A stretch of 64,000 bases of DNA, taken from assembly GCF_003184905.1 (NCBI RefSeq), contig NZ_QFRU01000004.1:1-64000 (forward strand). Direction: 5' to 3'. Below the pieces are notes generated by a model. The model was given only the letters and a program-made list of their open reading frames with translations. It was not told the DNA's origin and searched no databases. The stretch comes from Bacillus sp. CGMCC 1.16541. GTDB lineage: Bacteria > Bacillota > Bacilli > Bacillales > Bacillaceae_H. The first letter of the stretch is position 1; every line of letters starts with the position of its first letter. A program made the translations under genes and the position numbers. Of the stretch, positions 40,453 through 44,857 are shown piece by piece.

Positions 40453-40721
40453 ATCGAGCTTGTTTCGCTTTTCTTACTGTCTAGCTGCACAAGCTATGTC
40501 CTACGGCTGTTTCACTCCTTCCCACGAAGTCAAAAAGCGACTTCTTCTCAGGACCTCCAACATCCTATGGACATAATCGAGCTTGTTTCGCTTTTCTTAC
40601 TGTCTAGCTGCGGCTTCTAGGCTTTCGGCCGTTTCACTTCTGCTATTGAAACTAAAAAGCAGTTTCCCTACCAGAAGCTCCAACGACTCTCATGCCTAAA
40701 CAGTCGCCTTCGCTTTTCTTA
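40453..40721 (-). repeat. Two tandem copies of the stop-codon-linked repeat (pgm-eno gap)
   Basis: Read on the minus strand, the block starts at the TAA of pgm (TAAGAAAAGCG). It repeats that unit twice more, marked by a 36-base perfect direct repeat at 40453-40488 and 40576-40611. The copy next to eno (about 40489-40611) has arms TATGTCC/GGACATA and inner hairpin GAAGTC/GACTTC. The copy next to pgm (about 40612-40721) has arms TAGGC/GCCTA and inner hairpin GAAACT/AGTTTC. The inner loop AAAAAGC (plus strand) is conserved. Apart from these repeats the 341-base gap shows no gene. Confidence 0.8.
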
Positions 40722-42251
40722 CTTAATAAGTGTTTTTCCTGTCATTTCTTTTGGTTGATCTACGTTTAGCAGTGTTAGTACTGTCGGTGCTAGGTCTCCT
40801 AGGATACCGTCTTCACGTAGTTCAACATCTTCTTTTGTAACAATGACTGGAACTGGATTAGTTGTGTGTGCTGTCATTGGTTTGCCTTCTGGTGTAAGCA
40901 CTTCATCAGCGTTACCATGGTCTGCTGTGATGATGGCTGTTCCACCTTTAGCAATGATTGCGTCGACAACTTTTCCTAAACATTCGTCTACTGTTTCGAC
41001 TGCCTTGATTGTTGGCTCAAGCATACCTGAATGTCCAACCATATCAGGGTTTGCAAAGTTTAAAATAATTGCATCATGCTTGTCCCCTTCGATCTCGCTT
41101 AGTAACGCGTCCGTCACTTCATAAGCGCTCATCTCTGGTTGTAAATCATAAGTAGCTACTTTTGGTGAATCGATTAGAATACGAGTTTCACCAGGGAATT
41201 CTTCTTCACGTCCACCACTCATAAAGAATGTCACGTGAGGATATTTTTCTGTTTCTGCAATACGAAGCTGCTTTAATCCATTTTGTGATAAAACTTCACC
41301 AAGTGTGTTGTCTAAGTTCACTGGTTTAAACGCAACATATCCATCAACCGTTTCACTGAAGTGTGTTAAACATACGAAATGCAAGTTTTTCGGATGCTTT
41401 TCGCCACGATCGAATGAACGGAAGTCGTCGTTTGTAAATGTATTTGAGATTTGAATTGCACGGTCAGGACGGAAGTTATAGAAAATAACTGCGTCTTCAT
41501 CCTTAATTGTTGCAACTGGTGAACCGTCTTCTTTCGTCATAACAGAAGGAAGAACGAATTCATCATAGATGCCATGCCCATACGAATCATCAATTAATTC
41601 ATACGCGTCTTTATACGTTGGACCTTCACCGTACACCATTGCGCGGTATGCTTTTTCAACACGTTCCCAACGCTTGTCACGGTCCATTGAGTAATAACGT
41701 CCAGAAAGAGTTGCAATCTCTCCTACACCATACTCGTCCATTTTCGCATTTAACTCGTCGATATACCCCTTAGCAGATTGTGGTGCTACATCACGGCCAT
41801 CTAAGAAGCCATGCACATATACTTTGTTTACGCCATGATTTTTCGCAAGACGTAACAATGCATATAGATGCTCGATGTGACTGTGCACGCCACCATCTGA
41901 TAGTAAGCCAAACAAATGAAGCGCTGTGCCTTTTTCTTTCGCATGGTTAATCGCTGCTAAGAATGTTTCGTTTTCCTCAAAGTCACCTTCGCGAATGGCA
42001 ACATTAACACGTGTTAAGCTTTGATAAACGATACGACCTGCTCCAATGTTTAAATGACCTACTTCTGAGTTCCCCATTTGCCCTTCTGGTAAACCAACTG
42101 CTTCACCAGCAGCTGTTAAAGAAGTATGAGGATACTGATTCCAGTAACGATCAAAGTTTGGCTTGTTAGCCTGAGTAACCGCATTACCTTTATCTTCTTC
42201 ACGTAATGCAAAACCATCTAAGATGATTAAAGCAACTGGTTGTTTACTCAT
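40719..42251 (-). CDS. gpmI: 2,3-bisphosphoglycerate-independent phosphoglycerate mutase
   Basis: An alkaline-phosphatase-superfamily enzyme of 510 residues, converting 3- to 2-phosphoglycerate with two manganese ions. The phosphorylated serine is Ser62 in [16 protein letters not shown], and other metal residues lie in LDGFALRE at the N terminus and TADHGNADE near residue 445. The start overlaps the tpiA stop by one base (TAATG), so translation is coupled. Its own stop codon is the first triplet of the repeat element that fills the gap to eno. Confidence 0.97.
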
Positions 42252-43006
42252 TATTTACCTGCCTCCAAAAGCTGTAAGAATGACTGTGCTTCAAGGCTTG
42301 CGCCACCCACTAATGCACCGTCAATATCAGATTGTGACATGTATTCTTTAATGTTTGCTGGTTTTACACTTCCACCGTACTGAATGCGTACTGCTTCTGC
42401 AACTTCTTGTGAGAATTGCTCAGCTACAACGCTACGGATGTAAGCACAAACTTCATTTGCATCTTCAGCTGTTGAAGATTTACCTGTACCGATTGCCCAA
42501 ATTGGCTCATATGCGATAACAACTTGTTTCGCTTGAGTTTCATCTAAACCTTCTAGCGCTTTTTTCACTTGACTAGCAACAACTGCTTTTGTTTGATCTT
42601 GTTCGCGCTCTTCATTTGTTTCACCACAACAAACAATTGGAGTTAATCCGTGTTTGAATGCTGAGATTGTCTTTTTGTTTACTGTTTCGTCAGTTTCTGC
42701 AAACATTTCGCGACGCTCAGAGTGACCTAAAATTACATAACTTACACCAAGGTCGTTTAACGCTACAGGACTTACTTCCCCTGTGAATGCTCCACTTTCT
42801 TGGAAGTGCATGTTTTGTGCACCAACTTTTAAATCAGTACCTTTTGTTGCTTCTACTAAACGATCTAAGAATAATGCCGGTGCACATACAACTGCATCTA
42901 CACTATCAGCTGATGGCACAAGTCCTTTTACTTCTTCAACAAAGCTAGTTGCTTCAGAAAGAACTTTATGCATTTTCCAGTTACCTGCAATAATAGGTTT
43001 ACGCAT
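42251..43006 (-). CDS. tpiA: Triosephosphate isomerase
   Basis: A TIM barrel of 251 residues interconverting dihydroxyacetone phosphate and glyceraldehyde 3-phosphate. Landmarks are the N-terminal GNWKMHK, the electrophile His in ILGHSERR, and the catalytic Glu in [13 protein letters not shown]. The ATG at 43006 follows AAAGGATG; the longer frame to 43099 adds 31 residues foreign to the family. It lies 328 bases after pgk (repeat element in between) and is coupled to pgm. Confidence 0.97.
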
Positions 43007-43193
43007 GATTATCATCCTTTTTATGGTTTGTATAAAAAGTGTTCTTAAGTGTGCTGTGAAGACTACAAGTCTATACTTGCATTGGTTCGTCCTACACATG
43101 TTACAAGGAGAGCTACTACAAAAAACAAACAGAAGGTGCTGTAGAAGGGACAGTAGCTAGTCCTCTTCAAATCTGTCTATTCGTTATGCCTCA

Positions 43194-43339
43194 GAGCTTG
43201 TTACACTTTTCTTACTGTCTAGTTCCGCAAGCTAGCTTCTACGGTCATTTCACTCCTTCCTACGAAGTCAAAGAGCGACTTCTTCTCAGGAGCTCCAATG
43301 TCCTATGAAGCTGAACGAGCTTGTTACACTTTTCTTACT
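43194..43339 (-). repeat. Stop-codon-linked repeat copy in the pgk-tpiA gap
   Basis: Starts on the minus strand at the TAA of pgk (TAAGAAAAGTG). Its two ends are the same 23-base sequence (43194-43216 and 43317-43339), both with the local variant TTACAC where other copies have TTTCGC or TTCCGC. Outer arms AGCTTC/GAAGCT and inner hairpin GAAGTC/GACTTC with loop AAAGAGC. About 71 central bases are identical to the copy after gapA. The rest of the 328-base gap (43007-43193) shows no gene or clear signal. Confidence 0.85.
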
Positions 43340-44519
43340 TATCGTTTAATGCTGTTACTCCTGGAAGTTCTTTGCCTTCCATGAATTCTAGTGACGCTCC
43401 GCCACCTGTTGAGATATGACTCATTTTGTCAGCAAGGTTGAACTTTTCAACTGCTGCTGCAGAGTCTCCGCCACCGATTACAGAGTATGTATCAGTTGCT
43501 TCTGCTAAAGCTTCTGCTACTGCTTTTGTTCCGTTAGCAAATGTGTCTAATTCAAATACACCCATTGGCCCGTTCCAAATAACAAGCTTAGAGTTTTTAA
43601 TAACATCTGCATAGATTTCACGAGTTTTCGGACCAGCGTCTAAACCTTCCCAATCGCTAGGGATGCTATCAACTGATACCACTTGTGTGTTTGCATCGTT
43701 AGAGAAATCATCTGCTACCACTACATCTACTGGCATGTAGAAGTTAACACCTTTTTCTTTTGCTTTTTCCATGAATGATTTCGCAAGGTCAATTTTATCT
43801 TCTTCAAGAAGTGACTTACCTACATCATGACCATTTGCTTTGATGAATGTATAAGCAAGACCACCACCGATGATTAAATTGTCTACTTTATCAAGTAAGT
43901 GATCAATTACACCGATTTTGTCTTTTACTTTTGCTCCACCAACGATCGCTGTAAACGGACGATCTGGATTAGATAAAGCTTTACCTAATACATCAAGCTC
44001 TTTTTCCATTAATAGACCTGCAACAGCTGGTAAGTGATGGGCGATTCCTTCTGTAGACGCATGTGCACGGTGAGCAGCACCAAATGCATCATTCACGTAT
44101 ACATCCGCTAGTTCAGCAAATGCTTTTGCTAGCTCAGCATCGTTCTTCTCTTCACCAGGATAGAAACGAACGTTTTCAAGAACTAATACGTCCCCTTCGT
44201 TCATGTTACTGATGATTTGTTTTACATTTTCCCCGTAAGCTTCGTCTGCTTTTGCAACGCTTTTACCAAGAAGATCTTGTAAACGCTCTGCAACTGCATT
44301 TAGACGTAACTCTTCTACTACTTGGCCTTTCGGACGTCCAAGGTGGCTCGCTAAAATTACTTTTGCACCTTGTTCTACTAAATGTTGAATAGTAGGGATA
44401 GCTGCACGAATACGAGTTTCGTCTGTTACTTTTCCATCTTTCATTGGTACGTTAAAGTCAACACGGCAAAATACTCGTTTTCCTTTTACATCGATGTCTT
44501 TTAAAGTTTGTTTGTTCAT
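43335..44519 (-). CDS. pgk: Phosphoglycerate kinase
   Basis: A two-domain kinase of 394 residues making ATP from 1,3-bisphosphoglycerate. The substrate-site [12 protein letters not shown] occurs near residues 20-31, the basic patch is ASHLGRPKG, and the nucleotide-domain signatures are [14 protein letters not shown] and [13 protein letters not shown]. The ATG at 44519 with AGGAGG upstream matches the B. subtilis start; the TTG at 44525 is an alternative two codons earlier. A terminator-like hairpin separates it from gapA, so it may be partly transcribed from its own promoter. Its TAA stop begins a repeat element. Confidence 0.98.
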
Positions 44520-44624
44520 CTTCAAAAGGCCTCCTTTTTATTTGTGGAACTAAGCAATAAAGCAATATGGCTTTTGTTAAGGATAAGTTGCATCGTTCAT
44601 GCTTCTTATTGGTGCCCCTGTTAG

Positions 44625-44677
44625 CCATAAAAAATAAATAAAGGAGGAGGGGGTTTATTCCCCACTCCCCCTTGGCA
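44625..44677 (-). terminator. Terminator between gapA and pgk
   Basis: The G-rich/C-rich stem (AAGGGGGAG/CTCCTCCTT and inner GGGG/CCCC) is followed on the minus strand by TTATTTATTTTTT. It should end much of the cggR-gapA message, as is known for B. subtilis, where the downstream genes are less inducible. Confidence 0.75.
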
Positions 44678-44730
44678 ATTTCATTATAGTGGTTCTACGT
44701 TTAGATATCCAATGATAACTAAAACATAGT

Positions 44731-44857
44731 TCCGCTTTTCTTACTGTCTAGCTAGCCTCTACGGTCATTTCACTCCTTCCTACGAAGTCAAAGAGCGACT
44801 TCTTCTCAGGAGCTCCAATGTCCTATGAGGCTGAACGCGCTTGTTCCGCTTTCTTAT
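44731..44857 (-). repeat. Stop-codon-linked repeat copy in the gapA-pgk gap
   Basis: Starts on the minus strand at the TAA of gapA (TAAGAAAGCGG) and ends in the same kind of motif at 44731-44744. Outer arms AGCCTC/GAGGCT differ from the pgk copy by one compensating base pair. The inner hairpin GAAGTC/GACTTC is kept. About 71 central bases are identical to the copy after pgk. Confidence 0.85.

Follow-up and report, generated by a model that had tools for sequence, protein, structure and literature searches.

The intergenic repeat units in the gapA-pgk-tpiA-pgm-eno operon (minus strand) of Bacillus sp. CGMCC 1.16541 (contig NZ_QFRU01000004.1, positions 1 to 64,000; this whole stretch of 64,000 nucleotides (nt) is called the window) probably represent a non-coding, mobile repeat resembling miniature inverted-repeat transposable elements (MITEs) and repetitive extragenic palindromic (REP) elements. 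Its sense-strand RNA would form a conserved rod of six helices, and it would be a general genomic element. The operon holds four units of 122-124 nt and three partial copies. The start of a unit (GAAAAG, or GAAAGC in the degenerate gapA copy) stands immediately behind each of the gapA, pgk and pgm stop codons. All three loci end with a 5'-partial unit, and two units follow each other in tandem behind pgm, with a period of ~123 nt. The features, in the order of transcription, are:

44854..45861, minus strand: gapA open reading frame (ORF), named by protein recognition; its stop codon abuts a unit
44744..44853, minus strand: type A repeat unit (arms AGCCTC/GAGGCT) with the outer 3' arm deleted, from sequence; covariance-model match at 44736-44857 (E 6.4e-23), directly behind the gapA stop codon (44854-44856)
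44730..44743, minus strand: 5'-partial unit closing the gapA-side array, from sequence
43335..44519, minus strand: pgk ORF, named by protein recognition; its stop codon abuts a unit
43215..43338, minus strand: type A repeat unit (arms AGCTTC/GAAGCT), covariance-model E 9.5e-33, fold z-score -2.57; the TAA stop codon of pgk (43335-43337) runs straight into GAAAAG
43194..43214, minus strand: 5'-partial unit behind the pgk-side unit, from sequence
40719..42251, minus strand: pgm ORF, named by protein recognition; its stop codon abuts a unit
40600..40722, minus strand: type B repeat unit (TAGGC/GCCTA, hairpin GAAACT/AGTTTC), immediately following the stop codon of pgm, covariance-model E 8.7e-28, fold z-score -4.07
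40477..40600, minus strand: eno-side type A repeat unit (TATGTCC/GGACATA), in tandem with the pgm-side type B unit (period 123), covariance-model E 8.7e-32, fold z-score -3.73
40447..40476, minus strand: 5'-partial unit before eno, from sequence

The common fold predicted for the sense strand is a rod in which an end stem AGC/GCT (or AGT/ACT), P1, P2, a CATT/AATG-type stem, a CTCCT/AGGAG-type stem and an apical hairpin follow one another. The original prediction had described covarying outer arms, an inner hairpin and a conserved loop in these repeats (AAARAGC on the plus strand, GCTYTTT on the minus strand), and all of them were located in the sequence at the places given; its outer arms correspond to P2 of the rod. 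Beyond that description, we found an additional outer stem CAAGCT/AGCTTG (GTGAGCT/AGCTCAC in another copy), further stems that link the outer arms to the hairpin, the end stem, the tandem period and the unit start immediately behind stop codons. Single-unit folding of the pgk-side, pgm-side and eno-side units and one unit from contig 2, with the gapA unit left out, gave one and the same rod for all four, with z-scores of -2.57 to -4.07. Where the apical loop reads GCUUUU, it complements the AAAAGC at the unit start, and a pseudoknot, or a contact between adjacent units, is conceivable from this complementarity.

Ten full units of the source genome were aligned by MAFFT without structural information. 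Among their 34 pairs, 95.6% of cells are paired, compared to 31-44% when the pairing is slid by 1-3 columns. Changes on both sides occur in 18 of the 34 pairs (61 cells), as opposed to one-sided changes in 2 cells, and the covariation score is 0.486. Four of five measures exceeded all shuffles (0/500 as high for each), and the fifth, which counts further pair types, did not (24 versus a mean of 28.5 in 500 shuffles). A larger alignment, comprising 60 matches (55 distinct rows) from 25 family codes, was made to a model built from these ten units, so that its pair counts are biased towards the structure. It displays two-sided changes in 30 of 32 pairs (480 cells), pairing in 96.1% of 1713 cells compared to 29-44% after sliding by 1-3 columns, and all five measures above shuffles (0/500 as high). 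The end stem AGC/GCT covaries in this set. The proposal that both strands of each stem change together, for which an alignment of genomic copies had been suggested as a check, is thus borne out in the source genome and holds in the larger set.

The original prediction left RNA and DNA cruciform side by side. What pairs as G-U on one strand stands as an A-C mismatch on its complement, and in the helices of the larger alignment G-U exceeds A-C by 25 to 3 (two-sided binomial p 2.7e-5). The direction is alike in the set of units from the relative G011, 49 to 22 (p 0.0018); two mostly G-U pairs were left out in each set, and both p values are too small, the rows being related. Strand folding was compared for 108 distinct units (110-130 nt long, from a set of 120 rows), and in 107 of them the minimum free energy of the sense strand is below that of its complement (mean -45.4 vs -37.1 kcal/mol). 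Because the sense strand folds better and G-U outnumbers A-C, RNA is favored over DNA cruciform, and a structure acting as RNA is, judged from sequence, the most likely. Covariation stands with these two features on the RNA side of the prediction, and its cruciform alternative is less favored. Some contribution of DNA is possible, since G-U remains rare in the larger alignment (25/1611 cells).

The source genome, a 3.97 Mb assembly in 58 contigs, yielded 13 BLAST matches and 16 covariance-model matches at E ≤ 0.1. Besides the glycolytic operon, copies are located in a cluster on contig 2 that follows genes resembling yqgF, mnmA, iscS and a peptidase (named by recognition), in two places on contig 8, behind 23S rRNA on contig 13 and, as a divergent copy, on contig 5. 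Units are ~120 nt long, with ends GAAAAGC...GCTRGACA, and the two main subtypes, A and B, are intermingled within arrays. Covariance-model matches at E ≤ 0.01 were obtained in 39 of 61 relatives, 34 of 46 family codes and 4 of 10 genomes of the genus. At E ≤ 1e-4, samples of 299 genomes each from the order and the class gave matches in 228 and 46 genomes, respectively; class matches outside the order number 25, of which 21 are in a single family code (f49). Relatives carry from 0 to at least 58 matches each, copy numbers being lower bounds because 58 or 11 candidates were scored per genome. A pattern scan of named genomes gave 9 stretches from four organisms. Similar sequences are common at gene ends in Bacillus genomes. 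Searches by blastn 'distant' disclosed nothing in plasmids (two different units) or in phages (one unit), and carriage by plasmids or phages was rejected on this ground.

The surroundings of 100 arrays were tabulated by simple ORF calling; they come mostly from G011, include repeated rRNA copies (G004, G009) and list a single locus twice (L026, L089). The 5' neighbor is on the same strand in 75, on the opposite strand in 22 and missing in 3. After dropping arrays with an RNA or missing neighbor, 67 arrays flanked by coding sequences (CDS) were retyped by hand: 30 are sense and 14 antisense in tandem contexts (p 0.023), 16 are convergent and 7 divergent. Behind a same-strand CDS (46 arrays), 31 are flush, i.e. 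within 7 nt of the stop codon or reaching as much as 30 nt into the gene, and 8 further arrays are one unit away from the stop; with an opposite-strand 5' CDS, 1 of 21 is flush. In front of first units (n = 67), position -1 is A in 54, position -2 is A in 52 and position -3 is T in 30, which gives (T)AA. Another GAAAAG-type start follows 59 of 110 distinct units.

Behind 23S rRNA or tRNA genes, the unit start is mostly 3-7 nt from the gene end, with exceptions 63-66 nt behind some tRNAs and one unit away in G004. Several rRNA operons have units 4-6 nt behind the 23S rRNA 3' end (G009 L079-L083; L073 on contig 13 of the source genome), G011 has them behind 23S rRNA or between tRNA genes (L095, L097, L099, L111, L114), and L051 has one between 16S and 23S. 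Being sited at 23S rRNA 3' ends and between tRNA genes, units are likely to be part of rRNA and tRNA precursors. In contigs C3, C4, C10 and C22 of G004, units are found within the first few hundred bases, and units with rRNA operons may lie at assembly breaks in this genome.

Comparison of relatives revealed gain and loss of units. The pgm-eno spacer is 334-344 nt long in the source genome and G005, with unit arrays, and 27-28 nt, with no unit, in the other 8 of 10 genus genomes. In the same comparison, the pgk-tpiA spacer measures 330-331 nt against 177-190 nt, and at this orthologous place the units of the source genome and G005 carry different arm sets, each set known from other copies. Short sequences at gapA-pgk in G005, G002 and G009 are read as collapsed remnants with the rod interior deleted. 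Sister species also differ in unit presence and unit number. Reading 21 G011 loci in G014 (both genomes are listed with 8-9% contamination) disclosed the same units at 3 (L107 and both L124 places), no unit at 7 (L098, L103, L112, L118, L121, L123, L125), fewer or truncated units at 5 (L102, L108, L110, L120, L128), an extra unit at 1 (L122) and rearrangement at 5 (L093, L101, L105, L109, L119); L115 had no match in G014. A GAAAA-type tag is retained at the empty sites L112 and L118, the upstream match of the latter being just 40 nt. At L128, a unit is positioned between the upstream stop codon and the resident unit in G011 only.

Ten orthologous unit pairs contain 320 helix pairs, of which 279 are unchanged. 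One-sided changes lead to or from G-U in 14 and to or from a mismatch in 11; two-sided changes connect Watson-Crick pairs in 12, six of them being the pgk-tpiA swap, and involve a mismatch in 4. Paired and unpaired sites differ at nearly equal rates (57/640 and 64/600), and settled copies under at most weak constraint would fit such sequences.

We infer that insertion takes place behind (T)AA, with the unit in the same sense as the upstream gene, and depends on an activity acting in trans. It would duplicate a few flanking bases, and units would be lost again by slippage between GAAAAGCGGA repeats flanking a unit. Selection on the fold would act mostly on units that spread. In the mRNA of an operon the rod is expected to form between cistrons, where any influence on processing or stability would be no more than local. 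Several results weigh against this mobile-element interpretation. Few target duplications are clean: four or more flank bases agree with the following linker at 9 of 37 first-unit loci (shuffled mean 1.8, maximum 6 in 2000 shuffles). Neither Y1 transposase (PF01797) nor RVT_1 (PF00078) had a match at E ≤ 0.001 in G004, G005 and G009, which carry 18, 8 and 9 unit matches, respectively, and no unit was found at E ≤ 0.01 in 20 chosen regions around Y1 genes. Finally, gene conversion and deletion between copies could imitate part of the polymorphism. With regard to MITEs, for which short inverted ends and a target duplication of constant length would be expected, the end stem AGC/GCT covaries, the flank sharing is above chance and irregular, and L125 has ATATAAG on both sides.

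Y1 transposase matches are present in 46 of 61 relatives, with 3 in the source genome, where RVT_1 has one match. An origin as the REP element of a REP-associated tyrosine (RAYT, Y1) transposase was rejected, because the three unit-bearing genomes have no PF01797 match and the 20 chosen regions around Y1 genes held no unit; a retroelement moved by RVT_1 reverse transcriptase was rejected because the same genomes have no PF00078 match. Mobility in them may be extinct or due to another enzyme, and an RVT_1-driven spread by a past or foreign enzyme is possible. Tentatively, units could belong to a large class of mobile elements in Bacilli that has no name so far; an RNA fold would define this class, which would be directed in sense to gene 3' ends (stop codons, tRNA, 23S rRNA) and move without Y1 or RVT_1.

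No Rfam model (4227 searched) matched over a unit at or above its gathering score in the window, the operon (E ≤ 5), 13 loci of other families (E ≤ 1) and L033. Membership in a known Rfam family was therefore rejected, including Bacillaceae-1 RNA (RF01690), which adjoins units and does not match the rod. Like the unit, Bacillaceae-1 RNA is structured, multi-copy and intergenic, and it is found beside or inside units; unlike the rod, it has 67 positions and two hairpins with RUCCU (UCCU) loops. Its matches occur in 24 of 61 relatives, with 57 to at least 69 in G011, G014, G022, G024, G047 and G048, and none in the source genome at E ≤ 0.001. Places noted are L101:1281-1465, L105:1913-2075 and L033:1875-1940, and at L033 the match and the unit match merely touch (2 nt). 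In the G014 counterpart of L122 (L136), a unit that G011 has intact is split by a Bacillaceae-1-like insert, ~60 nt long as judged by eye, and Bacillaceae-1 RNA also looks like a mobile repeat. It is named in a table of PMC2864571.

Among described repeats, the REP elements and bacterial interspersed mosaic elements (BIMEs) and the enterobacterial repetitive intergenic consensus (ERIC) elements of enterobacteria are extragenic, palindromic, repeated and present in transcripts. The unit differs from them in having no Y1 link found, in RNA-strand asymmetry and in one fold across many families. REP/BIME and ERIC elements are named in PMC2267715, which also presents Bhal-1 of Bacillus halodurans, an intergenic repeat of 36 copies with a predicted common stem-loop; compared by its description, it resembles the unit in these features and differs in length (74 nt vs ~120 nt). 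The bcr1-bcr3 repeats of the B. cereus group are MITE-like and intergenic, with copies in transcripts (84/165 and 62/155 in two strains), according to PMC3446304. As described there and in PMC6542083, these repeats (100-400 bp) share with the unit mobile-element features and a frequent location in untranslated regions (UTRs) or operon spacers, and PMC6542083 reports them as confined to the B. cereus group and linked with a TTTAT motif. Judged by these descriptions, the unit differs in occurring in many families and in its preference for (T)AA followed by G. Open full-text papers, searched also with literal sequence strings, gave no recognized description of the unit, a weak negative confined to open papers.

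Other explanations of the fold have to be weighed against a mobile repeat. Units might serve the host as RNA elements, rods between cistrons blocking exonucleases or setting cleavage sites and so giving cistron-specific stability. The RNA-level fold, the sense orientation flush behind genes, and the 14 of 25 one-sided changes that keep G-U together with 12 two-sided changes to other Watson-Crick pairs speak for such a role, as does the comparable bcr3, linked to longer mRNA half-lives in PMC3446304 by authors who are themselves cautious. We nevertheless regard it as unlikely, given the orthologous pgm-eno spacers without a unit, the 0 to at least 58 matches per relative, the similar rates of change at paired and unpaired sites and the apparent remnants at gapA-pgk.

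A REP-like DNA element, whose palindrome works as a cruciform or as a single-stranded transposition substrate with the RNA fold as a by-product, would agree with the few G-U pairs, the dominance of two-sided changes and the intergenic, repeated and polymorphic nature of units. A symmetric DNA hairpin does not predict the better folding of the sense strand, and the excess of G-U over A-C in both sets and of sense over antisense arrays (30 vs 14) also speaks against it, making it an improbable account. Paired changes could further arise by copying between arms or copies (quasi-palindrome correction, gene conversion) and not by selection, as the arm sets exchanged at pgk-tpiA and the few one-sided changes in the source genome might indicate; however, all six helices covary across 25 family codes and single positions hold several pair types, which, like the conserved unpaired motifs, arm copying alone would hardly produce, and the G-U excess is also against it, so we consider it very unlikely.

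The suggestion that these stems tune expression of the glycolytic operon did not hold. The same element is found behind unrelated genes, tRNAs and rRNAs, and operon-specific regulation was rejected as the main explanation because most orthologous spacers are without units. The link of the repeat with glycolysis is circumstantial; effects of units on the operon mRNA are possible and, because units are gained and lost between relatives, would be incidental. A promoter-like site TGGATA-17-TATAAT (window 44683-44711, minus strand; consensus match alone) lies between the gapA-side unit and pgk, which suggests that this unit may belong to a gapA 3' UTR. Sequence similar to this site is present in spacers of relatives.

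A widespread repeat thus explains stems that seemed special to one glycolytic operon and that most of its relatives lack. Present in 228 of 299 sampled genomes and without an Rfam model, it can lead the annotation of operons, gene 3' ends and the spacers of rRNA and tRNA genes astray. Because units stand flush behind genes, they make it possible to test how a non-coding element chooses gene ends, and what effect a rigid RNA rod has between cistrons.

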